Shown piece by piece: positions 2,314-19,251 of a stretch of DNA of 20,404 bases. The stretch's first letter is position 1; the number at the start of each line of letters is the position of its first letter. Below the pieces are notes generated by a model. The model had not been told where the DNA came from. It worked only from the letters and a program-made list of their open reading frames with translations, and searched no databases. This DNA is from a virus. A program made the position numbers and the translations under genes. The stretch covers positions 1 through 20,404 of IMG/VR virus record IMGVR_UViG_3300020000_000065, one strand, 5' to 3'.

Positions 2314-5300
2314 ATGGACATAACAACACTCGGCATCGGCATCGACTCACGACAGGTCGATGAAGGTCGGCAATCGCTGGACAACTTCACGCGTGCCGCA
2401 GGCAGGGCAGAAGATGCCGCCGAAGGTGTCGGCAAAGGCGCGAAGAAGGGCGCGAGTGATGTAAAGAGTTTCGAAGATCAAATGACTGCGGCTGCGGTCA
2501 AGGGTGCTCTCTTTGCTGATGCTATTCAGAAGGGTGTGCAGATGGCAATTGATGCCGTCAAGCAACTCTATGCATTGATGGCGGAAGCAGGCGATTACGC
2601 AGACCTTGCCGACATGACGGGCGCTTCAGCGGTCAACATCGCGAAGCTACAGACTGCGGCAGATGTGGCCGGTATATCCATGCAAGGCATGGCAGGTCAC
2701 ATGAATGCGATGACGCGCATACTCAAGTCGACTGATGAAGAAGGCGACAAGGCTGCGAGAGCGTTAGCGCGTATCAACATCAACTATGAAGACTTTATAA
2801 AGCTGGACCCGGCAGAGCGTGTTGCAGCGCTCGGTGTGGCGATGGGCAAGTATGCTGATGGCGTCGAGAAGACGGAAATCTTGCAAGCCATAGCGGGTCG
2901 AGGTGCCGGTGAACTAGGCAAGGCAATCAAAGTGCTTGCCGATGAAACGGCATTCGCTACGCGGCTCAATAATGAGATGATTCAATCTGTCGATGGATTG
3001 AATGATGCTAACGCTGAATTCACATCGAAGTCGCGGCAATACATTCAAGCTATTCTTGTTGGCACTGTGCCTGCAACAGAAGCGTTCAAGCTCGTTATCA
3101 AAGAGACTACCGCATCTATGTTCGGCATGGGTGATGCGGCTGATGCACTTGGCGCGAATCAAGGTGCGCACAGTTTTTCTGAAGCTGTCGGACACGGTCT
3201 TGCCGGTGCGATCACTGCATTTCAATTGATCTACAGGGTTGTCGAAAGTGTCATCAACGCAGTAGTGTCGTTGATTAAAGTCATCATCGACTTAGGTACG
3301 ATGGACTTCTCTGGTGCATACAAGACGGTAGAGGATTTAGGCGAGAAGATAAAGTCGATTTGGTCCGAAGACTTCGCAGGGATTTCTTTCGGCAACACGC
3401 AAGGCTTCAAGGGAAGTTTTCAAAAGAAACTCGACATGATGTCCAAGGCGGCGAGAGAAGCTGCGGCAATGGCAGCGGGCGGCGAAGGTGCCTACGAAAC
3501 GCAAGAAAAAATACGGCAAGGGCAAACCGACAAAGAAATAGCGGACGCCAAAAAGAAGGCAGAAGAACTCGCGAAGATTGCGAAGAAGGCCGCTGAAGAC
3601 GCACTCAAGGCAGCGGAAAAGCAAGCCGATGACTTCGACAAGATCGTCGGCGGCGGCACCTTGAAGGCTGTTGGATACAACGACAACTTCATTGAACAGA
3701 TGAAGGTTATCAACGCCGAAAGTAAGAAGCGCAACTACACCGAAGATCAGTATCGAAAGATTGTCGATGGCTTGATCTCGCAACAGCCGTTCTACACGCA
3801 AGCCATCAAGGATCAAGCGCAGGCGGCAGAAGATTATGCTGACGCAGAGAAGAGAGCGTTCGAAGCAGCGGACAAGGATCGAGCCACTGTCTTGAAGGCG
3901 TCTGATGAAGCAGCGCTTGCGGCAGAAACAGAACTCGCGAATCGCGGCAAGTTGAAGAGTGAGATCGCAGCGACGACGTTGGCACGGCTTGAGGATTTGC
4001 GCGTCGTCAATATGTCTGACCCGGTCTTGCGCGAGTTCTATGAGCGGCAGATTGCGAATCAGAAAAGAATCATCGCGGCGATGAAGGGCATCGAAGTTGT
4101 CGATGCAGCGAAGAAGAATGCCGATGAAACAGCGAAGGCATTCGAACAAGCCTGGGAACAGATCGGGCAATCGCTTACCGATCAATTGATGAAGGGCTCG
4201 TTGAAAGCAGCGGACCTCATAAAGAATTTATTCAAGACGATGATCCTGCGTCCGACGATCATGGGCGCGGCGCAAGGTTTCGGTGCGAGCTTCATGGGTG
4301 GTGCGGCAAGCGGCGGTGCGGCAGGCGGCGGCGGTGGCGCATTTGGCGGTATCGGTGGCATGGCAGGATCAGCAGCCGGATCGGCGCTGTTCGGCGGTGT
4401 CGGCACGGCTGCGGCAACGACGTACACGGGCGCAATGGCCGCTGGCCTGCCGGTGGCGAACGCGATAGGCATGGGGGCCGGTGCGGGCCTTGCTGCTATC
4501 CCGGTGGTAGGGTGGGTTGCCTTGGCTGCGATTGCGGCCTATGCGCTCTACAAGAAGTTCGGCAAAGGTGGCGGGCCAAAGATGGAGGGCTCTGCCGGTT
4601 ATTCGTCTGATACTTTGATCGGCAAGTTCGGTAATGAGATGGACTCGGGTGCCGCAAATGCCGTGAAGGATTTGAACGCGAACTATAAGAAGATGGCGCA
4701 GATGCTCGGTGCTGCGCGGCAAGATGTTCAATTCGGCGTTGGTATATCGACAGACCCGCGTGGCGACGCAGCGTCGATGGTTCAATTGATTAGTTCGCTT
4801 GGCGGTAGCTACACGAACAAGAATGTCGGACGTAGCGAAGAAGAACTCGCTGCGGAGATAGCGAAGGGTGCTGCGTTTCTGATGGTTGATGCAATTCGCA
4901 ATTCTGGCATGGATGCACAGTTGCTTGCGTACTTCGACAAGATGACTGAAGGCATGACCGATGAAATGAAGCTCGCTTCTGTTGAACAGCTTGCCGCTGT
5001 TAATGTGTATTGGAAGCAAGTGCAGGGACTCGGCGGCGTCATGAAACAGTTCGCGAATATGTCGCTCGAAGCGGCTATTCGTCTCGGCGAGCTTTCCGGT
5101 GGCATCGAGAATTTCGGTGCTAATCTCACGAGCTATGTCGCGAATTACTTATCGCCCGCAGAACAACAGTCGATGAAGTTTCAACAGATTGCCGCGCAAC
5201 TTAATGAAGCGGGCTCCGGGTGGACAGGTTGGAGTGAAGCGATCTTGCGCACTTACGACAGAGCGTCGTTTCGCAAGTTGGTCGACGGTCTTGATCTCGC

Positions 5301-6255
5301 AGTAGAAGGCGACAGAATGCGCTATGCGGCGTTGATGAAGGTCAATGCAGCATTCGCAGAACTCAACCCGTTGATAGAAGAGGTGGCGGCTAAAACTGAA
5401 ACGGCTGCGGAGAAATACGAACGCTTGTCGAATGTGCTTGAGACAGCGACGGATAACTTGCGCGATGCTTATGAGCGTCAACGGGATACATTGATTGGGA
5501 CGCGTGACGCGATGCGTGACGCGACGCAATCGTTCTTGGACTTCAACAAGTCGCTGAAGGTTGACGAAGCATTGAGCACGCTCACACCGGGTGAGCGCAT
5601 GGGGGAACTTCGCGATCAGTATGGTGCTGCACGCAGTGCGGCGGCTGCTGGTGGCTACAAGGCGGAAGACGTTGAGCGCATGCAAGCGGCTGCGCGAGCC
5701 TTGCTGCAAGGCGGCAGGGAGTTCTACAGTTCGGGCGAAGGTTACGATGAGTTGTTCAACAAGGTCACATCTGAGATGGAACTTGCAGCGGGTTCGACTA
5801 AATACTTGAGCGACGTTGCCGACATGCAATTGCTCGCGTTGAATCGTCAAGTCGATCACCTCATTTCCATTAACGAAACTTTGATGAGTGTCGACACCGC
5901 TTTGCGTTTGTTCTTAGAGGCACGTCACGATCTATACACGCTGGGTTATCCGCACGCCGAAGGCTTGTCGCGAGTCCCATTCAACAACTATCCTGCGTTG
6001 CTTCATCAAGACGAAATGGTCTTGCCTCAAAATGAATCGGCGTTCATTCGTGGTCTGCCTGACTTCTCAGGGGAGTTGCGTGCACTGCGTCAAGAGGTTG
6101 CGGCATTGCGCAAAGAGAATCGGCAAGATGCAGGCAACACAATCGGTGCGACGTTCACAGCGGCGCAACAGTCGGCACAAGTGCAAAGCGAAGCGACTAT
6201 CCGGGCCGCTCGTCAGCGAACCTATCAATCACGTTCTCGGCCTGTATTGGCCTAA
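2314..6255 (+). CDS. Tail tape measure protein
   Basis: At 1313 residues this is the longest helical protein in the window, and it follows the chaperones as tape measure proteins do. It sets tail length and is ejected ahead of the DNA. The N-terminus (DITTLGIGIDSRQV, then Ala- and Gly-rich helix) is typical of the family. A hydrophobic segment lies at about 300-329, a Lys/Glu/Ala coiled-coil stretch at about 395-446, a segment resembling the C-terminal part of lambda gpH-type proteins (QLMKGSLKAADLIKNLF) at about 620-640, a Gly-rich stretch at about 660-690, and a second membrane-like segment with small residues at about 728-747. The C-terminus is again coiled and charged. With the usual ~0.15 nm per residue, a tail near 195 nm is expected. 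No lysozyme or peptidase domain was recognised in it. Confidence 0.93.
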   Translation: MDITTLGIGIDSRQVDEGRQSLDNFTRAAGRAEDAAEGVGKGAKKGASDVKSFEDQMTAAAVKGALFADAIQKGVQMAIDAVKQLYALMAEAGDYADLADMTGASAVNIAKLQTAADVAGISMQGMAGHMNAMTRILKSTDEEGDKAARALARININYEDFIKLDPAERVAALGVAMGKYADGVEKTEILQAIAGRGAGELGKAIKVLADETAFATRLNNEMIQSVDGLNDANAEFTSKSRQYIQAILVGTVPATEAFKLVIKETTASMFGMGDAADALGANQGAHSFSEAVGHGLAGAITAFQLIYRVVESVINAVVSLIKVIIDLGTMDFSGAYKTVEDLGEKIKSIWSEDFAGISFGNTQGFKGSFQKKLDMMSKAAREAAAMAAGGEGAYETQEKIRQGQTDKEIADAKKKAEELAKIAKKAAEDALKAAEKQADDFDKIVGGGTLKAVGYNDNFIEQMKVINAESKKRNYTEDQYRKIVDGLISQQPFYTQAIKDQAQAAEDYADAEKRAFEAADKDRATVLKASDEAALAAETELANRGKLKSEIAATTLARLEDLRVVNMSDPVLREFYERQIANQKRIIAAMKGIEVVDAAKKNADETAKAFEQAWEQIGQSLTDQLMKGSLKAADLIKNLFKTMILRPTIMGAAQGFGASFMGGAASGGAAGGGGGAFGGIGGMAGSAAGSALFGGVGTAAATTYTGAMAAGLPVANAIGMGAGAGLAAIPVVGWVALAAIAAYALYKKFGKGGGPKMEGSAGYSSDTLIGKFGNEMDSGAANAVKDLNANYKKMAQMLGAARQDVQFGVGISTDPRGDAASMVQLISSLGGSYTNKNVGRSEEELAAEIAKGAAFLMVDAIRNSGMDAQLLAYFDKMTEGMTDEMKLASVEQLAAVNVYWKQVQGLGGVMKQFANMSLEAAIRLGELSGGIENFGANLTSYVANYLSPAEQQSMKFQQIAAQLNEAGSGWTGWSEAILRTYDRASFRKLVDGLDLAVEGDRMRYAALMKVNAAFAELNPLIEEVAAKTETAAEKYERLSNVLETATDNLRDAYERQRDTLIGTRDAMRDATQSFLDFNKSLKVDEALSTLTPGERMGELRDQYGAARSAAAAGGYKAEDVERMQAAARALLQGGREFYSSGEGYDELFNKVTSEMELAAGSTKYLSDVADMQLLALNRQVDHLISINETLMSVDTALRLFLEARHDLYTLGYPHAEGLSRVPFNNYPALLHQDEMVLPQNESAFIRGLPDFSGELRALRQEVAALRKENRQDAGNTIGATFTAAQQSAQVQSEATIRAARQRTYQSRSRPVLA

Positions 6256-6720: not shown

Positions 6721-6951
6721 GTGGCGCACGTCCCGACGTGCGACCCGAATGTAGTTATCGAGTCGCAAACGCCGACGAGTGTTATCTACCTCGTACCCGT
6801 GACGGGCGAGAGGTGGAGGATTGATGGCGTGTGCAGTCAATGCGGCGAGTGCTGGCAAGGGCTCACAACACCGAAGCCGACACTCGATTGCCCGGTGCGC
6901 CCGACGATCTCGAAGTTCCCTAGCTGCACGCTTAGCGGAGAGTACCTCTAG
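6721..6951 (+). CDS. Small six-cysteine protein of the tail module
   Basis: This 76-residue protein has no recognised family. It begins with GTG 6 nt after the upstream stop and has no clear Shine-Dalgarno, so it may depend on translational coupling. It contains six cysteines at about residues 7, 38, 41, 44, 57 and 69. Three form CxxCxxC (CSQCGECW). The spacing suggests metal binding, either zinc or an iron-sulfur cluster. Lambda tail-tip protein gpL carries an iron-sulfur cluster, so a tail-tip metal protein has precedent, but nothing here proves the comparison. Its TAG stop shares one base with the GTG start of the giant tail-tip gene, so the two are probably translated together. Confidence 0.6.
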   Translation: MAHVPTCDPNVVIESQTPTSVIYLVPVTGERWRIDGVCSQCGECWQGLTTPKPTLDCPVRPTISKFPSCTLSGEYL

Positions 6952-9900
6952 TGCCTTCGAATCTATACTTCACTGCCGTTGTACCGACAGTCGGACCGAC
7001 AGCCGGGACGAAGGCTACGTACCTGCCTCTCGCTTCGCCTGCCATTAACAATGTTTGGCCTGGGTCAGAGGTCAATTCGTCATTCACCGAAGTACCTCCG
7101 GACGATACGAATCAGCAGTCGCGGCAATGCCCGATGCTGAACGACACTGCGAATAGGCAGACGTACTATCTCGGGCGTTTCTGCACATTGCCTCTTGATG
7201 CGCAGACCATTCCGGCGCAAAGCTGGGACTATCGAAATGTTGTGTGCGGCGAGTGGAATACGCAGTGCAATACATATCACTGGCCTGTTATCTATGTATG
7301 GCGTCCCTCGACTAATTCGGTCGTTGGATACTGTCTCAACGCGTCCGCTCAAATGGGTGTTGAGTGGGCTGTCACACCGGCAGGTGTTTCGGGGCAGTTA
7401 TTTGCCGGTGCGGCGGTAACGTGCCAAGCAGGCGACATACTTGTCTGTGAGTTCTGGGCTTCTGGCATTTTAGGTATGACCGGCAGTCAACAGCTTCAAT
7501 GGCTGTGGACCCAGGCATCTAACACCTATATTGCTTCACCGTACAAGCTAGTTTATTACTCGGGTCCGGTAGGACCGAATACACCGAGCACCGCTGACAC
7601 GCTCGTGTTCTCGCCGATGACGGCGTTCGCAGCGACATCGACAGTCACGCGCAACTACACGAGCAACGCAGTGCCGCTGACACTCTCGCCGATGTCGGCG
7701 ACTGCGGCAACGTCAGGCGTGGTGAAGGTATACAACAGCGTCGCAGACCCGATGACGTATGCGCCGATGGTGCCGTTCGATGCGACGGCAACAGTGACGC
7801 GCAACTACACAAGCAGTGCGGACCCGGCAACGTATGCAACGACGCCAGTAGACGGCGAAGAGTTCTTTAGCGGCATCACGAATTTCTTTCCTTGTGCCGA
7901 TCAGGCTCTAGTCTTTCCATCAGGCGGGCTGAAGGCAGGGTCACTGCCGAAGGTCGGGAACAACAACGTCGCATCTGGCAGTGCGGTCGAAGGATCGTTG
8001 CCGTTGTTCTGGGGCGGCGGCGCGAACATCGCGAACCGCACGACAGCGACGGTGTCGAACACCGTTGTGCAATCGCACTTCTTCGGGCGCTTTTCTTCGC
8101 GTCCATTGGCCGCGCAAACGATACCGGCGCAGAATTGGAACTATGCAGTAGTTGTCGGTGAGGGCAATCTCAATGCGAATGCGTTTCTATGGCCGGTCAT
8201 GTATGTGTACCGGCCTTCGAACAGCACTGTTGTCGGTTATGTCTTCAATGCGGCGGCTGATGCGGGCACTGAGTTGCCAGCTACAGCGGCGACGGCGACG
8301 CGGACATTCGCGGGTGCACGGGTAGCAGGCATTCAAGATGGCGACATACTTGTCGTCGAAGCGTGGACAGTTACGTCGCCGACAATCGCCGGTATCTACA
8401 CGCAGACATTCAGGATCACCGACAACACATCGAAGATCGCTTCGCAGTATAAGGTGCTCTTCGCACCTAACTCGGTCCTGTTCTTTAGTAGCGCGACACC
8501 GACTTCATCGCCGACAGCGGGAACGAAGGCAACCTATCTTCCGAAGACACCGACAGCTACGCAGCACACCGCATGGGGCACTGCTGAAGGTGCGTTGCCA
8601 GAGACGATTGTTCATAATCCCGTGTGGCGCGGTGTTGTGTCGAAGGCGAACACTACTGCGCAATCGCTGTTCCTGGGTCGGTACTCGACGCCACCACTGG
8701 CAGCGCAAACCATACCGGCGCAGTTGTGGAGTTGGGAAGTATCTGCGGGACAGAATAACGCCAATGCGCATACATTCAATTGGCCGGTTCTGTATATCTG
8801 GCGTCCGTCAACGAGTCAGGTTGTTTCGTACATTCTCGATGCGTCGGCGAACTACGGCATTGAGTGGCGGCTCTTAGGCGACCCGCGTCTAGATCAACAA
8901 TTCTCGGGTGCGTCTGCTGATGTTCAAGCGGGTGACTTACTGGTCTGCGAGCTTTGGGCTGTCAATGTTCAAACAGCGGCGACAGCCTACAGCGAAGATT
9001 TCTGGATCAATGCGCAAAATTCTGATTTAGTCTCGCCCTACAAGTTGCGCTACTACACAGGCGCGGCAGCGATAACATCGACAGCCGATCCGACTGCTTA
9101 TAGTTGCGTCGCGCCCGATGCAATCAGCACAGTGACGGTGTATGCACCGCCATTGATGGAGACGCTCACAGAGAACTTCGAAGCACCACTCGACACGGGC
9201 AAGTGGACGACAAGTAACTTCGATGGCACGGTGACGTTCACAGGTGGCGTCGGTGTCTTCGATGTTTCGACTGGCATTGCTGGCGCGCAGGCCGAAATCT
9301 TTTCTGCTGGGCCGTTCTACGATCTTAGACAGAGCAAGGTCTTCTTCAAGCTCGTTAAACCATTCAAGCAAGTCGGTGATCCTAGCACCGCCGATTTCTC
9401 GCTGGGCATTATGTCGCCCGGCAATAACACGCTAGCGTTCGCGCAAAACACTGCCGGGTATCTGCGAATCATTAAATTCACGGGCGGTGCATGGGGCCAT
9501 GTTGCAGATATAACCTTCTCCTATTTCGCAGAAGAAGACACCTATAGATGGTTGCAGATTCGCGAGCAAGCCGGGACAACATACTTCGAGTCTGCGCCGA
9601 GTAGCGCTTCTAATCCGCCGACTGCCGGTCAATGGGTTGTTCGTCACTCTGCGCTGACGAACACGCTGCCGGTTAACTTTGCATCGTGTCAGCCTGTCTT
9701 CTGGATATACACGAACGCAGGCGGCACGAAGTTGCAGGCCGCGCAGATTGACGGGTTCAACACCGCTGCTTCTGCCGGTGCTGCCGCAGCAATCACGTCG
9801 GTTGCAGACCCGATGACGTATGCGCCGATGGTGCCGGTTGCGGCAACGTCGAGCGTGCAAGACTACAGCAACGCGAACACGAACGTCTATGCGCCGATGT

Positions 9901-12900
9901 CGCCCGTTGCGGCAACGTCGAGCGTGCAAGCTGTCAGCAACGCAGTGCCGCTCACGTTCGCGCCGATGTCGCCGACAGCGGCAACGTCTTCGATCACGCG
10001 GGTCTACACGAGCAACGCAGTCGCAGCGTCCTACGCTCTCGCGCCGGTTGCCGCCACATCGTCAGTTGCCGTCTTCAGCAACGCAGTCGCAACGACGTAC
10101 ACACTCGCGCCGGTTGCCGCGACGAGCATCTATGTGCCGACTGCCGGGAACGTGGGGCCTGCGGCCTATGCGCTCGCGGCTGCGGCTGCGGTGTCGAGCG
10201 TGCAGGGCAACAGTGCTGCGTTGCCTTTCGTCTTCAGTTTCGCGGCGACGGCGACGGGCACCGGGCGCGGCTGGGCGAGCGTCGGAAATGCGGGCCTGTA
10301 CGCTCTCGGGGCCGCTCCGGGCTCCGGTAGCATTGGCAGGGTCGGGATCGCGTCGCCTGGATCGTTCTCGCAAGCCGGTTTCCCAGGTTGGGACACCGGG
10401 GCTTACTACAGCAGCGCTGATCCGATCGGATACAGCACAACAGGCATAGCGGCGACGGTTTCGCTCGGTCGGGTTTATTCATCGGTCGCTTCGTCGACGG
10501 GCTTTGCACAGTCGCCGAATGCAACAGGCGACACCGCTGCGCTCTTCTCGGTTGCGTCACCGCTTGCATTCACGCCGCTTGCCGCAACAGCGGCAACATC
10601 GGGCTTCGCTGTTTATTCGGTTGCGCTGCAAGCGAACTACACGCACACCGCACCGAATGCGACGGCATCGGTAGGACGCACCTACACATCGACTGCGACG
10701 GCAACGAACTTCTTCACAGCGCCTTCTGATGCAGGCGATGTGTCCGCACGGTTTTCTTCTGCGTCACCTACTGCGTACAGTCAGACAGCGATAGCGGCAA
10801 CGTCCGGCGTTGTCCGCATCGTGTTCTCGACGGCGTCGCCGATAACATACAGCCACACCGCACCGGACTCGTTCTCTGGCATTGTCCGGATTATTCCGAG
10901 CAATGCGGTGCCTGCGGTTTACTTTAACTTTCCGCAGGATGCACAAGTCAGTCTTGCGCGCACGTCGATTGCGTTGCCGTTCACGTATGCACCGCTCACG
11001 GGCACTGCGACGACAAGCGGCTTCGCTCGATCTTCGCTTGCGATAGAGGTAGCGTACAACCTTGTCTCGCCGGTCACGTCGGATGTTCTCGGTCGGACAT
11101 ACACGAGTGTTGCGTCACCGGCTGCGTATGTCTTGAGCCCAGGTTATCCGGGTGATGCCGTAGCAGACAACTCGACTGCGACGAGCACTGCATACAGTTC
11201 GACTGTGTTTGCGGCGACTGCTTTCCCGAGTAAGAACTCGATTGCGCTGCAAGCGAACTATGCGCACGATCCGCCTAACACGCAATCAGGGCGCATCACG
11301 TTTTCGACTGCGTCGCCTGTGGCGTTTACCGTTGCATCACCGGCAACGAATTCGTATGTTCCTGGCAAGGTGGCATCGGTTGCGCTGCCGCCTACATTCC
11401 TGACGACTGCGACAGCGTCTAATCATCGGCGAGACTACGCAACGAAAGCACTTGCGGCGCTCTATCTGCAAGCACCGTATGTCAACAGTGATCGTGCATC
11501 GAATGAGGTCAAGCCGCCGATAATCTTCCCGCTGCCGTCGCCGATGTCGGCGGTAACAGATGAACAGTTCGCAGCATGGTTGAACGACGATCATGCGATT
11601 CGTGTTGTGCTGATCGAGACGAAGTGTGTTGACCCTGTCACGAACATGACCGAGTCTGTCTTCTTCGCGTCGCGTGGCTTCGTGACGAAAATCGAAGACG
11701 GTCCGAATGCTGCCTTCTATGCGCCGTTGATGCGCGGCGGGCTTGAGTTCGCGCAGACCATCGACCTCGACTTGCAAGGCAATCAATCGTATGGCGACAT
11801 CGAGCTAGACAACACCGAAGGTGATCTCGATTGGATGTTTGACCGCGTGTGGCTCTATAAAGAGTTCAAGGCATACGTCGGTGATGCGACATGGCCGCGC
11901 CGTGATTTCAGGCAGATATTCGACGGCACGATTGAAGACATTGACAGCAGCATGCGCGACACCGTGAACGTGCGGCTGCGCGACAAGCTGTATCGTCTCG
12001 ATATGCCGATCACTGATTCGAAAGTCGGCGGCATTGGACCTAACGCAGACCAACTCGTGCCGATCACGTTCGGCGAATGTCACAACATCACGCCGTTGAT
12101 CTATAGCGCCAAGGATTTGATCTATGTCTATCATGCGCGTCTAGCAGAGGGACAGTTAGAGGTTCGCGACAACGGTGTTCCTGTGGCGTCTACATTCCTT
12201 CAAGGCGCACCGCAATCGTTTCAATTACAGAAACAGCCTTATGGCAGGGTCACATGCAGCGTGCAAGGCGATAAAACTCCTACCGCTGCGGGCTTCACTG
12301 GTGGCTACGTCAACACAGTGGCGTCTCTGGTGCGTCGGTTGCTAATTGAATGGGGCACCATTGCTGCGAATCGTTTTACAGCAGCCGACATTGATGTTCG
12401 CAACTTCACTGTGTTCGACGCAAAGAATAAAGCGCCGGTTGGTCTACACGCAACAGAGCGAATGACAGTGCTTGAGGCGTGTCAGCAACTTGCCGCGTCT
12501 GTGGGTGCACGCCTGACGATGACAGCGCTCGGTAAAGTACAACTCGTGAAGCTGAAGTTGCCGCCGGACGACGATTCAACGCCAGTGAACTTGCAGTACA
12601 ACGGCGATTTTTCTGCGCTGCTTGATGGCTGGACCTATAACGGCGGTAGCGGCGGCGTTGCCCCTGATGCGACAGTAGGCATCAATCTTTCTGATGTCTG
12701 GACTCCGCCAAACACAAACACGTTCTATGCGCATCAACAAGGCATCGTAAATAATCCAGAAGGCTATTTCGAATACATTGGCAAAGCTATTCCAGTTGAA
12801 CCCGGCAAGCAATATGTCGTTAGTGCGTACACTGGTGCCCATCGCTGTCGCGTCGCTATTTACTTCAGTGAGTACAACGAAGCTGGCACACTTCTCGGCG

Positions 12901-13568
12901 GCGTGCCTGTCCTGCCGACAACGGCATTCAACAACGCAGAAGCGTTAGGCGGGCAAGGGTTGTCAGGCTATAAGCAGATATACAACTCACAGGTAACAGC
13001 GTCGACTACTAGATGGATTCGTGTTGTGATGCGCAAGTACGATACCATCTCAGGCAACACTGACTCGTGGATATTCGCTAACACGGTATCGTTCACCGGC
13101 ACAGAGTCGAATGTTCTTCCGACAATTGTTGTCACCGAGTCGGACATGGTGTCGGGCTCGCTGCACATCGCGGATCGTTTGCCATTGGTGCCGGGTGCTC
13201 GCCTGGGCTATTGCAAGAATTGGACAATACAAGAAGACACAGCGCAAGGTGTGCCAGAAGATCACAAGGAGATGTATAGACGCGAGTGGTTGACCGTATC
13301 AATTGCCGAAGCAGTTGAGCAAGAGAATTGTTTATTGTTGGATAGCTACAGCGCGAACAATGAGTGCACTCGGCGTGTTGCGTTGCGTTCGTCACAGCGT
13401 CACGTGTATGAGTTCGTAGGCTTTGCGAACTTGATGTTCACGCCAGTGGGCGCAGCGATGAAGGTGATTCACCGTCGCTTTAATTTGTCCGCAGGCAAGA
13501 CAGGACAAGTCGTGTCGGTAGCTGTAAACTGGCTAACGTCCCAGGTCACAATCAGGGTGCTAATCTGA
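6951..13568 (+). CDS. Giant repeat-rich tail-tip / hub protein
   Basis: This 2205-residue protein starts at GTG with GGAG about 10 nt upstream, overlapping the previous stop by one base. Domains in order: a ~200-residue module (about 5-205); four short repeats (about 213-302); second and third copies of the module (about 303-509 and 510-704); a single short repeat; a ConA/LamG-like beta-sandwich (about 734-940); roughly 25 copies of a ~23-residue repeat (about 948-1519); then a region without repeats (about 1521-2205). The last region looks like a tail hub or minor tail protein, judging by its position after the tape measure and before small tail-tip genes. It contains an inserted carbohydrate-binding-like sandwich (about 1882-2050). 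The repeat array is probably an extended shaft and the flanking modules receptor binders; that is inference. No catalytic motif was recognised. Confidence 0.8.
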   Translation: MPSNLYFTAVVPTVGPTAGTKATYLPLASPAINNVWPGSEVNSSFTEVPPDDTNQQSRQCPMLNDTANRQTYYLGRFCTLPLDAQTIPAQSWDYRNVVCGEWNTQCNTYHWPVIYVWRPSTNSVVGYCLNASAQMGVEWAVTPAGVSGQLFAGAAVTCQAGDILVCEFWASGILGMTGSQQLQWLWTQASNTYIASPYKLVYYSGPVGPNTPSTADTLVFSPMTAFAATSTVTRNYTSNAVPLTLSPMSATAATSGVVKVYNSVADPMTYAPMVPFDATATVTRNYTSSADPATYATTPVDGEEFFSGITNFFPCADQALVFPSGGLKAGSLPKVGNNNVASGSAVEGSLPLFWGGGANIANRTTATVSNTVVQSHFFGRFSSRPLAAQTIPAQNWNYAVVVGEGNLNANAFLWPVMYVYRPSNSTVVGYVFNAAADAGTELPATAATATRTFAGARVAGIQDGDILVVEAWTVTSPTIAGIYTQTFRITDNTSKIASQYKVLFAPNSVLFFSSATPTSSPTAGTKATYLPKTPTATQHTAWGTAEGALPETIVHNPVWRGVVSKANTTAQSLFLGRYSTPPLAAQTIPAQLWSWEVSAGQNNANAHTFNWPVLYIWRPSTSQVVSYILDASANYGIEWRLLGDPRLDQQFSGASADVQAGDLLVCELWAVNVQTAATAYSEDFWINAQNSDLVSPYKLRYYTGAAAITSTADPTAYSCVAPDAISTVTVYAPPLMETLTENFEAPLDTGKWTTSNFDGTVTFTGGVGVFDVSTGIAGAQAEIFSAGPFYDLRQSKVFFKLVKPFKQVGDPSTADFSLGIMSPGNNTLAFAQNTAGYLRIIKFTGGAWGHVADITFSYFAEEDTYRWLQIREQAGTTYFESAPSSASNPPTAGQWVVRHSALTNTLPVNFASCQPVFWIYTNAGGTKLQAAQIDGFNTAASAGAAAAITSVADPMTYAPMVPVAATSSVQDYSNANTNVYAPMSPVAATSSVQAVSNAVPLTFAPMSPTAATSSITRVYTSNAVAASYALAPVAATSSVAVFSNAVATTYTLAPVAATSIYVPTAGNVGPAAYALAAAAAVSSVQGNSAALPFVFSFAATATGTGRGWASVGNAGLYALGAAPGSGSIGRVGIASPGSFSQAGFPGWDTGAYYSSADPIGYSTTGIAATVSLGRVYSSVASSTGFAQSPNATGDTAALFSVASPLAFTPLAATAATSGFAVYSVALQANYTHTAPNATASVGRTYTSTATATNFFTAPSDAGDVSARFSSASPTAYSQTAIAATSGVVRIVFSTASPITYSHTAPDSFSGIVRIIPSNAVPAVYFNFPQDAQVSLARTSIALPFTYAPLTGTATTSGFARSSLAIEVAYNLVSPVTSDVLGRTYTSVASPAAYVLSPGYPGDAVADNSTATSTAYSSTVFAATAFPSKNSIALQANYAHDPPNTQSGRITFSTASPVAFTVASPATNSYVPGKVASVALPPTFLTTATASNHRRDYATKALAALYLQAPYVNSDRASNEVKPPIIFPLPSPMSAVTDEQFAAWLNDDHAIRVVLIETKCVDPVTNMTESVFFASRGFVTKIEDGPNAAFYAPLMRGGLEFAQTIDLDLQGNQSYGDIELDNTEGDLDWMFDRVWLYKEFKAYVGDATWPRRDFRQIFDGTIEDIDSSMRDTVNVRLRDKLYRLDMPITDSKVGGIGPNADQLVPITFGECHNITPLIYSAKDLIYVYHARLAEGQLEVRDNGVPVASTFLQGAPQSFQLQKQPYGRVTCSVQGDKTPTAAGFTGGYVNTVASLVRRLLIEWGTIAANRFTAADIDVRNFTVFDAKNKAPVGLHATERMTVLEACQQLAASVGARLTMTALGKVQLVKLKLPPDDDSTPVNLQYNGDFSALLDGWTYNGGSGGVAPDATVGINLSDVWTPPNTNTFYAHQQGIVNNPEGYFEYIGKAIPVEPGKQYVVSAYTGAHRCRVAIYFSEYNEAGTLLGGVPVLPTTAFNNAEALGGQGLSGYKQIYNSQVTASTTRWIRVVMRKYDTISGNTDSWIFANTVSFTGTESNVLPTIVVTESDMVSGSLHIADRLPLVPGARLGYCKNWTIQEDTAQGVPEDHKEMYRREWLTVSIAEAVEQENCLLLDSYSANNECTRRVALRSSQRHVYEFVGFANLMFTPVGAAMKVIHRRFNLSAGKTGQVVSVAVNWLTSQVTIRVLI
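6963..7565 (+). repeat. Tail-tip module, copy 1 of 3
   Basis: This is the first copy of a ~200-residue module. Shared landmarks are PTAGTKATYLP near the start, a YLGRF-type motif, AQTIPAQ followed by a W, WPV.Y.WRPS, a QAGDILVCE-type segment, and a YKL.YY ending. It lies at the N-terminus of the 2205-residue protein. Confidence 0.8.
7587..7856 (+). repeat. Four ~23-residue repeats between modules 1 and 2
   Basis: Four units of the pattern (S)xADPxxYAPMxPxAATSxVxRxY are encoded here. They match the long array at 9792-11508, including a 33-nt exact DNA match, so module-linker and shaft repeats have a common origin. Confidence 0.8.
7743..7775 (+). repeat. 33-nt exact direct repeat, left copy
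   Basis: These 33 bases, coding for ADPMTYAPMVP in context, recur exactly at 9804-9836, 2061 bp downstream. They sit within 23-residue repeats of the inter-module linker and of the long array respectively. Confidence 0.9.
7857..8477 (+). repeat. Tail-tip module, copy 2 of 3
   Basis: This is the second copy of the ~200-residue module. It keeps FFGRF, PLAAQTIPAQ, WPVMYVYRPS, a QDGDILVVE segment and an SQYKVLF ending. The PTAGTKATYLP motif is much altered in this copy, so it has diverged more at the N-terminus than copies 1 and 3. Confidence 0.8.
8478..9062 (+). repeat. Tail-tip module, copy 3 of 3
   Basis: This is the third copy of the module, directly abutting copy 2. It has PTAGTKATYLPKTP, FLGRYSTPPLAAQTIPAQ, WPVLYIWRPSTSQVV, QAGDLLVCELW and a YKLRYYTG ending. 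The PTAGTKATYL motif recurs from copy 1 almost unchanged. Confidence 0.8.
9792..11508 (+). repeat. Array of about 25 degenerate ~23-residue (69-nt) repeats
   Basis: Each unit follows roughly SxAxPxxYxxxPxAATSxxxRxY, that is, SNAVPLTFAPMSPTAATS and similar. I count about 25 units in about 1.7 kb, close to 69 nt each. The first few units are the most alike: bases 9837-9861 recur exactly 69 nt later at 9906-9930. Later units drift in sequence and slightly in length. Alternating small and aromatic residues suggest beta strands stacked into a shaft. The units match no repeat family I can name. Confidence 0.82.
9804..9836 (+). repeat. 33-nt exact direct repeat, right copy
   Basis: This is the right-hand copy of the 33-nt repeat at 7743-7775. 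Recombination between the copies would delete about 2 kb in frame, removing modules 2 and 3 and the ConA-like domain. Confidence 0.9.
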
Positions 13569-15345: not shown

Positions 15346-17376
15346 ATGGGCATACGATTCTATGGAGGTTTGCCGATCAGAGTGCCGCCCGCTACGGTGT
15401 TGCCGAGTGCGTTGCCGGTCAACACCGTGCCAGCGGGACAGACTACCTACATCGACACGACGAAGCGCTTTCGAGTAGCGGACAGCAATCCTGTCAAGGT
15501 TGCCGATAACGATTCACCACTCGTCACAGCGACGCTTACTTGTTCTAGCGGCATACTCGAAGTTATACCGAATGTGGGCGTGATCGTTTCCAACAACATC
15601 AGCACTCGCGTTGTTGTCATGGGCTCAACTACGAACGTAAATCGCGCATTCGACGGTTTACGTTGGACACCGACACCGGCATTCAGTGGCACTGCAACGA
15701 TCACTCTGCGCACGAGCGACGGTGACAACATTGATACCGACACTTTCAACGTCGTTGTGTCAGGTACAGCACCGCCTTATGTGCCGCCTGGGCCAACGAA
15801 CTCTGTGCCGTCAGGGACGAAGATGGTGCCGTATGGCTACACGCTCAACTTCTCAGGCGACGGCATCACTGTGTATGACCCTGATGTGGCGACGCTGACA
15901 ACGACGCTCACGATGGTCGGTGGCATTGTTCACGTGACGCCAAGCGGCGCAGCCGTGACCGGCAACGATACAGGGCTCGTCACTCTCGTGGGCACACAGA
16001 CGCAGATTAGTGCAGCACTCGGCACGTTGATCTTCACGCACAACGGCGGCTTCTGGGGCTACGCTAAGATAACAGTGTCGACAAACGATGGTCCGAAGAC
16101 AAGTGCGAACGACATCAACATTGTTGTCGGTGTGCCTGCACTGCCGCCTGTGCAACTCGTGCCGCCACAACCGTTCTCGGTATCTGGCTTTACTGCGGGC
16201 TCGAACATCAAGTTCACGAGTGGTCCCGGTCCTGACAATTCGATGAAGATCACCGCTGCCTATAAGATGTCGCTTCGCACAACGATCTCGTGCGGTCACG
16301 GCATCATTAAATATGACGCCAATGCCACGGGCTACACGAATCTCGCCGATGGTTGTCCGACGAAGGTGCTCTATGGTTATTGGAACGGTGCCGCTGCGAC
16401 AACGATGCGACAGATAAACAATTATTGGAATGTCATTGGTATGGCGCGTGCACGCAATGCCGGTTCCGGCCTGGGCGGCGGTGCTGTGTCCTGGCCCTAT
16501 GCAACGGGCAATGCGGGCGTGCCGCTACCGCACGATGTTCAATTCATTCGAGCCTGCGGCAAGCCTGTCTTGCTCGTTGTCGGCGGGCCTGGGTATGGCT
16601 TCAACTACACGACGCGAGCGCAGTCGGATGCCTTGCTTGGCTCGCTCATTCCGTTGATCTATGCAATGGGTGGCGTCGACGGCATCGACATTCAGTTTTA
16701 CGACGGCGACTTAACTGGCTTGAGCCTCACAACGGAAGCTGTCTATATCGCGCAGCAATTGAAGGCAGCATACGGTTCGAAGTTCATGATTGTTTATTCA
16801 TTCAGGCAAAACCCAGCGTCGCAGCAAGTGAAGGACATTGCTGTCGCTTTGCACAATGCAGACTGCTTGACGTTAGTTCAACAGATATTCATGGACAATG
16901 CAGCGAACAAAGTGGCGAATGCTGTATCAAGCAAGGTTCTTCAGTTCATAACGGACACGCAAATTCCACGTAACAAACACATGATTGGCATGTCGCATAA
17001 CTATGACTACACGAACAATCTCACCCTAGCAGAAGCCGTGAATGCATATCAACAAACGAATACGGTCAACACCGCCTTTCGTGGCGTGTCCTGTTGGTCT
17101 ATTGACCTAGATGCTGCGGTAACTGGCTCATTCAGCACAGAGTTCAAATGGACGCAGCTTGGCTATACCTTGACTGACAAAGGTACGGCACTCATAACAG
17201 GACACTCAACGAGACAAGTGACGCTCACGGGCGACTACCAACAAATTAACTCGGCGTTGGCATCGTTCTACTATTATCCGGACCTTAACTATCAAGGCCC
17301 GGACCCTGTTGTCATGACGACAACCGATGGCACGCTATCGGACACGGACTCGATCAATGTCACTGTGATGAATTAA
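15346..17376 (+). CDS. Tail fibre-like protein: cadherin-like repeats with a GH18-like, apparently inactive, barrel
   Basis: This 676-residue protein has two cadherin-like beta-sandwich repeats (about 27-142 and 147-263), each ending in a strand with SDG or NDG and DT- or D-rich turns. A third repeat seems to start near 270-325 and finish at about 603-676 (TTTDGTLSDTDSINV). Between its halves lies a GH18-like barrel (about 340-600): KVLYGYWNG opens it, VVGGPGYGF (about 411-419) matches the SxGG strand, DGIDIQFYDGD (445-455) matches the DxxDxDxE strand, and CWSIDLD (583-589) matches the final barrel strand. In the catalytic motif the third Asp is Gln450 and the acid Glu is Tyr452, so chitinase-type catalysis is unlikely and glycan binding is more probable. 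A GAGG lies just before the ATG. Position at the end of the tail genes fits a receptor-binding fibre. Confidence 0.78.
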   Translation: MGIRFYGGLPIRVPPATVLPSALPVNTVPAGQTTYIDTTKRFRVADSNPVKVADNDSPLVTATLTCSSGILEVIPNVGVIVSNNISTRVVVMGSTTNVNRAFDGLRWTPTPAFSGTATITLRTSDGDNIDTDTFNVVVSGTAPPYVPPGPTNSVPSGTKMVPYGYTLNFSGDGITVYDPDVATLTTTLTMVGGIVHVTPSGAAVTGNDTGLVTLVGTQTQISAALGTLIFTHNGGFWGYAKITVSTNDGPKTSANDINIVVGVPALPPVQLVPPQPFSVSGFTAGSNIKFTSGPGPDNSMKITAAYKMSLRTTISCGHGIIKYDANATGYTNLADGCPTKVLYGYWNGAAATTMRQINNYWNVIGMARARNAGSGLGGGAVSWPYATGNAGVPLPHDVQFIRACGKPVLLVVGGPGYGFNYTTRAQSDALLGSLIPLIYAMGGVDGIDIQFYDGDLTGLSLTTEAVYIAQQLKAAYGSKFMIVYSFRQNPASQQVKDIAVALHNADCLTLVQQIFMDNAANKVANAVSSKVLQFITDTQIPRNKHMIGMSHNYDYTNNLTLAEAVNAYQQTNTVNTAFRGVSCWSIDLDAAVTGSFSTEFKWTQLGYTLTDKGTALITGHSTRQVTLTGDYQQINSALASFYYYPDLNYQGPDPVVMTTTDGTLSDTDSINVTVMN

Positions 17377-17686: not shown

Positions 17687-17989
17687 ATGATGCTCGATGC
17701 TTCTTTCGTGTCGTCGGCGTGCTGGTTCTTCATCGGCACGACGGCTATCGTCGCGAGCTTCAACGGCATGGTGCGCAAGACCGTGCTCGAATGCATTGCA
17801 CTCGGCGGCGTCAGCCTGGGCGCGTTCTCACGATCCTACTATGTCTACATGCGGCAAGAGACGGACCCTGATGCGCTTTGGATTTCGATTGCGCTCGCGA
17901 TCTATTGCCTTGCCATGTGGTACAAACTCGTGTGGGTTATTCCACACCGGCCCGATTACAAGCCGCCACCGAAATCGCCTTACTACTGA
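17687..17989 (+). CDS. Small three-segment membrane protein of the lysis cassette
   Basis: This 100-residue protein is separated from the previous gene by 1 nt and has AAGGA about 9 nt before its ATG. Two consecutive ATGs (17687 and 17690) could both serve. Hydrophobic segments lie at about 9-25, 33-50 and 64-86, followed by a proline-rich tail (HRPDYKPPPKSPYY). It could be a second holin, an antiholin, or an accessory membrane protein. Its stop overlaps the endolysin-fusion start (TGATG), so the two are translationally coupled. The family is not recognised. Confidence 0.65.
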   Translation: MMLDASFVSSACWFFIGTTAIVASFNGMVRKTVLECIALGGVSLGAFSRSYYVYMRQETDPDALWISIALAIYCLAMWYKLVWVIPHRPDYKPPPKSPYY

Positions 17990-19251
17990 TGGCAAACATC
18001 ACGCTCACAGACTACATCGTCAAGCGCAATGTGCGGGCGTTCCTGTGGGCGATTCGATATGGCGAAGGCACGCAAGGCGAGAACGGATACCGCACGCTGT
18101 TCGGTGGTCAATTGTTCAAGGGTCCGGACGGTGTCTATGGCACGTTCGACGACTTCGCCGATCACCCGCGCATCAAGACGACGGTGACGCTGCGCAATGG
18201 CAAGGTCTACACGTCGACTGCGGCGGGCGCGTATCAATTCATCGTGCGCACATGGGACGGTGTTTGCAATCAATACGGCTTCATCAACTTCGAGCCACCG
18301 ACACAAGACCTTGCCGCTATCGCATTGATAGCTGGCCGCAAAGCACTCGAAGATGTTGTCGAAGGTCGCATCGACATCGCAGTTGCGAAGTGCAATAAAG
18401 AATGGGCTAGCCTGCCTGGGAGTCCCTACGGGCAACCCGTTGTCACGCTGGGAGAGTTCAAGCGAGAATACGAAGAGGCAGGCGGGCTGTATTTGAATGA
18501 ACAAGCGCAACCCTTGCCGATACCATTGCCACCGGAAGCAATCGCACTTGAGCCCAAATTGCCACCGGCTAACGGCAGCGAAGTCGTCGAGATTGCGAGA
18601 GGTAAAACGGCGGACATCGAGGCAAGCTACATACAGGAGAAGCAAATGCCTATACCCGCAGTTGTCGCGGCATTGTTGCCGACGCTCATTCAACTCGTGC
18701 CGCAGTTGACGAAGATTTTCGGCAGTGGCTCTGAGGTATCGAACCGCAATATCGCAGCGGCAGAAGCAGTGTTCACCGTGGCGAAGGATGCCATCGGCGC
18801 GAAGAATGAACAAGAGGTTGTCGAAGCGGTGAAGGCCGATCCTGTTCAAGCAACCATCGTCAAGAATGCTATCGAGAAGAACTACTTGAACATTCAAGAG
18901 GCGGGCGGCGGCGGCATCGAAGGCGCACGAGCGTACAGCGTCGCTGTCGCATCCATGCGCACGCCAGAGGGACAGCCGCTCTCGTTGCTCACGCAACCGG
19001 CCTTCGTGATCTCTATCGTCATGCTCGGGCTCGTTGTCATGATGGTGCTTGTCGTGCTGTTCCCGTGGGAAATATTTCGAGCGAACGGCGGACAGATTTA
19101 TACCGATGAAGTACGATTGATCGTGGTGACAGCCATCATCGGATCACTCTCGACGATAGGGGCTTTCTGGCTCGGATCGTCATTCGCAAGCCGTGGCAAT
19201 AACGCGAGTGGCTCTCGCACACGTTCAACCGATTCAGGAGCAATGCAATGA
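17989..19251 (+). CDS. GH104 endolysin fused to a holin-like membrane domain
   Basis: The start is the ATG overlapping the upstream TGA; the in-frame extension from 17878 lies inside the previous gene. Residues about 10-172 match lambda gpR, a muramidase/lytic transglycosylase that cuts the MurNAc-GlcNAc bond: GEGT with catalytic E26, ADHPR, STAAGAYQF, QDLAAIALI, and WASLPGSPYGQP. Lambda gpR is about 158 residues; here the gene continues for about 250 more. A Pro-rich linker (about 172-198) leads to a second region that starts at Met220, with an amphipathic LPTLIQLVPQLTKIFGSGSE, an acidic helical stretch, and two membrane segments (about 335-357 and 375-396) ending FWLGSSFAS, typical of stand-alone phage holin-like proteins. 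No signal peptide precedes the enzyme, so release or flipping across the membrane must rely on the membrane domain or the neighbouring holin candidates. Confidence 0.85.
   Translation: MANITLTDYIVKRNVRAFLWAIRYGEGTQGENGYRTLFGGQLFKGPDGVYGTFDDFADHPRIKTTVTLRNGKVYTSTAAGAYQFIVRTWDGVCNQYGFINFEPPTQDLAAIALIAGRKALEDVVEGRIDIAVAKCNKEWASLPGSPYGQPVVTLGEFKREYEEAGGLYLNEQAQPLPIPLPPEAIALEPKLPPANGSEVVEIARGKTADIEASYIQEKQMPIPAVVAALLPTLIQLVPQLTKIFGSGSEVSNRNIAAAEAVFTVAKDAIGAKNEQEVVEAVKADPVQATIVKNAIEKNYLNIQEAGGGGIEGARAYSVAVASMRTPEGQPLSLLTQPAFVISIVMLGLVVMMVLVVLFPWEIFRANGGQIYTDEVRLIVVTAIIGSLSTIGAFWLGSSFASRGNNASGSRTRSTDSGAMQ
18635..18648 (+). promoter_or_regulatory. Internal Shine-Dalgarno and start codon inside the endolysin fusion gene
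   Basis: AGGAGA followed by 5-6 nt and ATG lies in the coding sequence for IQEKQM, exactly at the linker-to-membrane-domain boundary. The start of the full-length gene has no comparable purine tract and relies on the TGATG overlap. Confidence 0.65.
18646..19251 (+). CDS. Possible nested holin-like protein from an internal start
   Basis: An in-frame ATG at 18646 (codon 220 of the fusion) lies 6 nt after AGGAG (18635-18639). This is a stronger ribosome site than the one before the full-length gene. The product would have 201 residues: MPIPAVVAALLPTLIQLVPQ at the start, two C-terminal membrane segments, and the FWLGSSFAS end. Free-standing phage proteins with this layout begin at just this point. 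The sequence shows the start signal. That it is used is inference. Confidence 0.55.
   Translation: MPIPAVVAALLPTLIQLVPQLTKIFGSGSEVSNRNIAAAEAVFTVAKDAIGAKNEQEVVEAVKADPVQATIVKNAIEKNYLNIQEAGGGGIEGARAYSVAVASMRTPEGQPLSLLTQPAFVISIVMLGLVVMMVLVVLFPWEIFRANGGQIYTDEVRLIVVTAIIGSLSTIGAFWLGSSFASRGNNASGSRTRSTDSGAMQ

Follow-up and report, generated by a model that had tools for sequence, protein, structure and literature searches.

The subject of this report is a tandem repeat array in the tail-tip hub protein of a bacterial virus that is known only from environmental DNA. The window, that is, the whole stretch of DNA analysed, is a 20,404-base virus record from IMG/VR (IMGVR_UViG_3300020000_000065). Directly downstream of its tape measure region lies the gene for a protein of 2205 amino acids (aa). 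In this protein, units of about 23 residues form a long array ahead of a C-terminal hub domain, and recur in short runs between modules closer to the N-terminus.

The hub gene and its repeat array

The hub gene is a single open reading frame with a GTG start. Searches with phmmer, using segments of the window protein, distinguish in the product, besides the repeats and the hub, three paralogous T modules of ~200 aa and a single Lam module. The relevant features are as follows.

2314..6255, + strand: tape measure protein (phrog_25966, E 1.6e-13), upstream of the hub gene
6951..13568, + strand: hub protein gene (2205 aa), identical (0 mismatches) on two further contigs, L002 and L003, one of them 59 kb
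6951..7565, + strand: T module A (aa 1-205), by phmmer a paralogue of B and C; without PDB match
7569..7853, + strand: N-terminal repeats between modules A and B (aa 207-301), 3 full and 2 partial units
7863..8465, + strand: T module B (aa 305-505), by phmmer
8466..9056, + strand: T module C (aa 506-702), by phmmer; abuts B, with no repeats between
9072..9134, + strand: single full repeat unit preceding Lam (aa 708-728), with a partial one nearby
9171..9770, + strand: Lam module (aa 741-940), by phmmer; without Pfam or PDB assignment
9798..11477, + strand: main array (aa 950-1509), 24 full and 2 partial units
10410..11237, + strand: four three-unit blocks in the main array (aa 1154-1429; 69, 70, 69 and 68 aa)
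11556..13565, + strand: predicted hub of gp27/pb3-like fold (aa 1536-2205), from phrog_8917, an AlphaFold2 model and VIA
12576..13112, + strand: insertion within the hub (aa 1876-2054) resembling a carbohydrate-binding module (CBM4-like), from VIA; Pfam score below cut-off

The repeat array is real and lies far above chance. Units were delimited by a circular-profile Viterbi procedure with insertions and deletions, and full units were counted with the modules masked; unit length ranges from 20 to 25 aa. Over aa 948-1519, residue autocorrelation is strongest at lags of 46, 23 and 69 (z 6.6, 5.3 and 4.6 against 200 shuffles). Under a profile seeded from five relatives only and scored against the arrays' own composition, the main array reaches 372 bits; 60 shuffles of the array give a mean of 11.3 and a maximum of 17.6 bits, and six stretches of the protein outside the repeats score 7-10 bits. 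The initial annotation, made from the DNA alone, had placed about 25 tandem units at 9792-11508 and about five more between the N-terminal modules. Both counts agree with those obtained here (four full and three partial units outside the main array), and the measured span is close. The proposed unit length of ~23 residues is refined: individual lengths cluster at 22 and 24.

In the DNA itself, a tandem repeat can still be detected over no more than 2.4 copies (9822-9988), and the units of the window share on average 30% of their residues; the array is therefore old. With so few copies recognisable in the DNA, a minisatellite is ruled out. A frameshift or pseudogene is likewise ruled out by the identical genes, whose frame is open on three contigs.

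The hub domain and its position

The hub part of the protein matches phrog_8917 (E 7e-39), a family with unannotated function, and, weakly, a tail family. An AlphaFold2 model of aa 1430-2205, built on 13 alignment rows, has a mean predicted local distance difference test score (pLDDT) of 63; the hub lies mostly at 60-89, with model residues 102-776 mostly above 60. VIA ranks T5 tail-tip hub chains at the top (Z 17.4, 17.2 and 16.9), the first of these, 9ioz_L, with 427 aligned residues at a root-mean-square deviation of 4.1. The MuSo2 43 kDa tail protein (3cdd_E) scores Z 17.1, and hubs of contractile systems score 14-17. Foldseek agrees (8hqz_A, 2.9e-10), and the best matches in BFVD include a Caulobacter phage tail protein. 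The C-terminal 670 residues are predicted to adopt a gp27/pb3-like baseplate hub fold, which, with the tape measure gene and the tail assembly chaperone (TAC) genes upstream, identifies the protein as a siphovirus baseplate hub. The assignment to a tail-tip hub in the initial annotation is supported by these matches, and its placement of the repeats inside the hub polypeptide is correct, since array and hub share one 2205-aa frame.

The insertion at aa 1876-2054 gives VIA Z scores of 10-11 to CBMs and other β-sandwiches. Its score against CBM4-2 structures (Z 10.2) is tied with those of other β-sandwich families, and Pfam CBM_4_9 is matched at E 0.052, with 14.4 bits against a cut-off of 25.9. 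A phrog_8610-type gene lies downstream of the hub gene; the same neighbours on both sides recur in L025, L026 and other loci, and in L024 and L025 the tape measure gene is directly followed by the hub gene.

With the T5 hub pb3 and the Mu gp44/gp27 hub fold, the window protein shares the hub fold and the position after the tape measure gene. The order of parts differs. In the window protein the hub is the end of the chain, after ~1,520 residues of other parts; aa 1536-2205 (residues 107-776 of the model) align to pb3 residues 4-710. Thus pb3 aligns almost from its first residue, and its extension is C-terminal, where fibronectin domains lead into the central fibre (PMC10038345); the window protein is extended N-terminally and bears the CBM4-like insertion. 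A similar contrast applies to siphophage Tal proteins, in which, according to a review, the hub domain is N-terminal and the extension comes after it, with CBMs borne by 'evolved' Tal and Dit proteins (PMC7291167). Both are hub polypeptides with sugar-binding-type modules, but the extension and repeats of the window protein lie N-terminal to the hub, so that it departs from the hub-first order of the Tal definition. The siphophage hubs described in these sources extend their adhesion parts C-terminally; the clade of the window does so N-terminally, on a long repeat arm.

How common this is can be judged from a set of 84 hub loci that are only distantly related (80 retained out of 129 confirmed ones, plus L024, L027, L028 and L030, where L024 is the L096 contig). 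The hub match is preceded by at most 40 aa in 69 of them and by more than 60 aa in 11, some of which are clearly read out of frame. None of these 11 has the array (window profile, 18 bits). L024/L096 carries ~2,000 aa of other domains ahead of the hub, and L083 ~1,000. From these counts, an N-terminal extension is a minority habit of the hub family; repeats as a general property of the whole family are ruled out. The window repeat was found in its own clade only.

Repeat units and modules among relatives

Seven distinct types of the protein were compared, namely those of the window, L004, L005, L006, L008, L010 and L014; all other loci are distant hubs, fragments or copies. Neither the fragments L007 and L022 nor L015, which has 20 mismatches to L014 where the two align, were counted as types of their own. 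L009 is outside all counts; at L009:7800-14460 it holds a near-copy of the L005 hub gene broken by frameshifts, through either assembly error or a broken gene. The orders of parts are given below (T, T module; L, Lam module; X, a further module; Rn, n full units).

Window: T-R3-T-T-R1-L-R24-hub
L004: T-R5-L-R2-L-R26-hub
L005: T-R11-T-T-R26-hub
L006: T-R8-T-T-R2-L-R2-L-R23-hub
L008: X-R8-T-T-R1-L-R21-hub
L010: T-R7-L-R3-L-R20-hub
L014: T-R8-T-T-R26-hub

In all seven types repeats lie between the hub and the modules, which vary in kind and number. Module X opens L008 and is present in L038 too (E 6.8e-23). The comparison of unit number between related phages, suggested at the outset, reveals variation: the main array next to the hub holds 20-26 units, the other arrays 1-11.

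The consensus of 192 units from six proteins reads SxAxPATYxLxP/A...AATSxVxRxYT. Column 1 is S in 92% and column 3 A in 96%, and column 8 is nearly invariantly aromatic (Y 70% or F 24%, together 94%); P in column 5 reaches 64% and R 53%. Judged by its sequence, the repeat constitutes a new family relative to the libraries searched; the initial annotation had likewise been unable to assign it to a known family. Pfam, PHROGs and NCBIfam give no family match to aa 950-1509 at E≤1, a 12-unit profile matches no chain among PDB sequences at E≤10, and tblastn with the array against 50,697 phage records yields no match at E≤10. Hub and T alignments found no relative in 84,980 prokaryote genomes, and within the open PMC literature, to which this statement is limited, neither these repeats nor hub arms at the N-terminus turned up.

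Units appear to be grouped in threes. Unit i resembles unit i+3 in 6/7 types (p≤0.009), which is also visible as a lag of 68-69, and the resulting super-repeat measures 68-70 aa. Two observations weigh against this grouping: the periodicity is not seen in L010 (p 0.25; best offset 1), and among 47 internal gaps, counted by hand in 21 pairwise unit alignments that are not independent of one another, 19 are single units and 15 are of 3 or 6 units. In residue alignments the last 12 units are collinear in all seven types; in unit-level pairings they are gap-free in most, with exceptions that include window-L004 and L005-L014. Relative to the window, L005 has one additional three-unit block, plus a single-unit gap.

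A candidate spacer arm and its alternatives

The interpretation preferred here, to which we give a probability of roughly 0.6, is that the array forms a β-rich spacer arm N-terminal to a siphovirus baseplate hub and carries surface-binding modules. The C-terminal 670 residues, given their predicted fold, would close the tail tube as the hub. Ahead of them, ~24 units with two short β-strands each, grouped in threes, would form the arm, at whose outer end the three T modules and one concanavalin-like module would sit; short runs of the same unit separate the N-terminal modules. The T and concanavalin-like modules would bind host surface glycans. In evolution, the arm would gain or lose length by blocks of units, and modules are swapped as cassettes. 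The arm would probably leave the hub at its side and not at its tip, because the first hub domain of T5 belongs to the tube-ending ring; the N-terminal placement shifts where the binding modules would sit on the tail tip.

Several points weigh against this interpretation. The last repeats in the model of aa 1430-2205 have a pLDDT of 25-31. Column covariation of the units gave no readable contact pattern, being confounded by orthology, and its offset-3 average was spoiled by one zero-spread cell. Conserved columns do alternate (1, 3, 5; 8, 10, 12; 19, 21, 23), and lag-2 exceeds lag-1 autocorrelation with p 0.006, but this was a single post hoc test on 24 columns; it suggests two β-strands per unit only weakly. 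The T modules have no Pfam match common to their members and no PDB match; the Lam module, which we take to be concanavalin-like from general resemblance, was assigned by neither database. Glycan binding by both is putative. Of the receptor-binding modules proposed initially, the arrangement stands, as the repeats do sit between modules that look surface-binding; the function assigned to them is putative as well.

Structure prediction, suggested at the outset as a check for disorder, was run on the 12 C-terminal units with AlphaFold2. On a 10-row alignment it gave a pLDDT of 31, which shows neither order nor disorder, and this very low-confidence model was set aside for the fold search. An alignment of 92 overlapping nine-unit windows was dropped, as it lost the unit register (745 columns). 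The β-rich character expected of the repeats thus has the alternation in its favour, and model support of very low confidence only. The shaft of the initial annotation, set there against a separate trimeric fibre, is accordingly one candidate form of the repeats, next to a trimeric fibre and a flexible linker.

Pro/Thr-rich linkers join the domains of bacterial glycosidases, and the array could be a flexible low-complexity linker of this kind, its regularity arising from unit duplication only. Ala, Ser, Thr and Pro make up 54% of the array, a composition that is also typical of flexible linkers and speaks against an ordered arm; charged residues amount to 5.6% (5.6-8.7% across the seven arrays). 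The pLDDT values of ~25-31 in both models fit a linker, as does the divergence of the array, which is faster than that of the hub (over 21 pairs, amino-acid identity is 43% in the array and 71% in the hub). A linker does not, however, account for the nearly invariant aromatic column, the positional orthology of the last 12 units or the residue alternation. With a mean hydropathy of 0.52-0.55, 7/7 arrays fall on that side of the charge-hydropathy line where ordered proteins lie, and codon-position divergence within the array is greatest at the third position (0.58, against 0.43 at the first and 0.37 at the second), an excess that points to purifying selection. Conserved columns, alternation, three-unit period and codon-position divergence may all be counted for an ordered array, and we consider a random linker rather unlikely.

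An ordered array might also be built from more than one chain. In the triple β-spiral shaft of the adenovirus fibre, a short strand-turn-strand repeat with a conserved turn residue is wound from three intertwined chains. The arrays of three hub chains could similarly twist together, giving a single trimeric β-fibre with its origin at the hub N-terminus, and the two strand-like stretches per unit, suggested by the very low-confidence model and the alternation, would suit it. Hubs of the gp27/pb3-like fold form trimers, T5 pb3 being an example (PMC10038345); a trimer would bring the origins of three arms next to one another, and the arms could then intertwine. The low confidence of the AlphaFold2 models could stem from the fact that each was made for one chain only. 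Such a fibre does not require a three-unit periodicity within each chain, and because the repeats resume after each module, its chains would have to part and rejoin; a trimeric fibre is possible, if doubtful.

The repeats themselves could bind the host surface in many copies, with the modules secondary. Host binding has been proposed for the tail-associated tandem BACON repeats of crAss-like phages (PMC6949934). These share with the window a tandem array in a tail protein; BACON is a whole domain of known family, whereas the window unit has ~23 residues and matches no family. Faster evolution of the array than of the hub would agree with binding by avidity. Yet charged residues are almost absent, exposed-type aromatics are few apart from the single conserved column, units in the C-terminal half are specific to their positions and do not vary, and separate modules of other kinds exist; avidity is therefore judged quite improbable.

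The preferred spacer arm can be set beside two other repeat types. EBPR siphovirus 2 gp72 (JF412297, annotated as a hypothetical protein; L073:3783-6542) has a C-terminal hub of the same family (phrog_8917, E 7.6e-98), but its ~400 N-terminal residues hold 18 units of a different 20-odd-residue repeat, xGxFxLxGQ, and no T or Lam module was found in it. An hhalign comparison of gp72 and window repeats scored 7.3 (E 0.25, suggestive but not significant; register as seen by eye), and six reversed or column-shuffled controls with two-unit profiles scored at most 3.8. L154 holds an 85% identical copy of the N-terminal 405 aa of gp72.

Proteins of ~810-1280 aa on nine contigs (L037, L038, L039, L043-L046, L048 and L049; one open at its 5' end) also contain T modules, and 8/9 contain Lam. 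Here the modules are joined by a ~21-aa repeat, ATLSVTEAxDTxSAT (TEA-type; 248 units by profile across the nine), and are not fused to a hub. TEA-type and window units show no homology by hhalign (E 0.92, 0.89 and 0.98). In the two proteins tested, phrog_38872 (function unannotated) covers part of the sequence; the contigs are podovirus-like on weak evidence where checked (L043), the others being unassigned.

Measured against the libraries searched, the repeats make up a new family. The arm varies a theme already known, that of hubs with adhesion extensions, and stands out by its reversed order and its three-unit periodicity. A more far-reaching proposal, which we put forward tentatively, is that a new β-repeat fold with three units per layer (68-70 residues) forms N-terminal side arms on these hubs, in reverse of the order described for known hubs, and that at least three unrelated repeat types of ~21-25 residues were recruited as interchangeable spacers for the same modules or hub. 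Because the repeat is absent from the libraries, has three-unit order and separates exchangeable modules, it offers a defined, testable spacer; and with other phages bearing these modules on repeats of other types, the requirements that a spacer must fulfil can be tested directly.

Other genes of the window, all on the + strand, accompany the hub gene. Tail assembly chaperone genes lie next to each other at 1517-1990 and 2023-2310 (phrog_313; Phage_TAC_18, E 9e-11). Upstream of them, 32-1516 encodes a 494-aa protein whose resemblance to glycosyl hydrolase family 12 falls short of the Pfam cut-off (E 7.9e-5; 23.3 bits, with 27 required), with a Pro/Ser/Ala-rich linker preceding the match. Downstream of the hub gene, the 676-aa product of 15346-17376 has a chitinase-like (GH18-type) stretch, aa 332-454, which matches chitinases of solved structure by phmmer (E 5e-6), flanked by cadherin/Ig-like parts with weak Pfam matches, and may be a further tail enzyme. 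An endolysin gene follows at 17878-19251 (phrog_90, E 2e-39), its product showing C-terminal transmembrane-like segments by eye.

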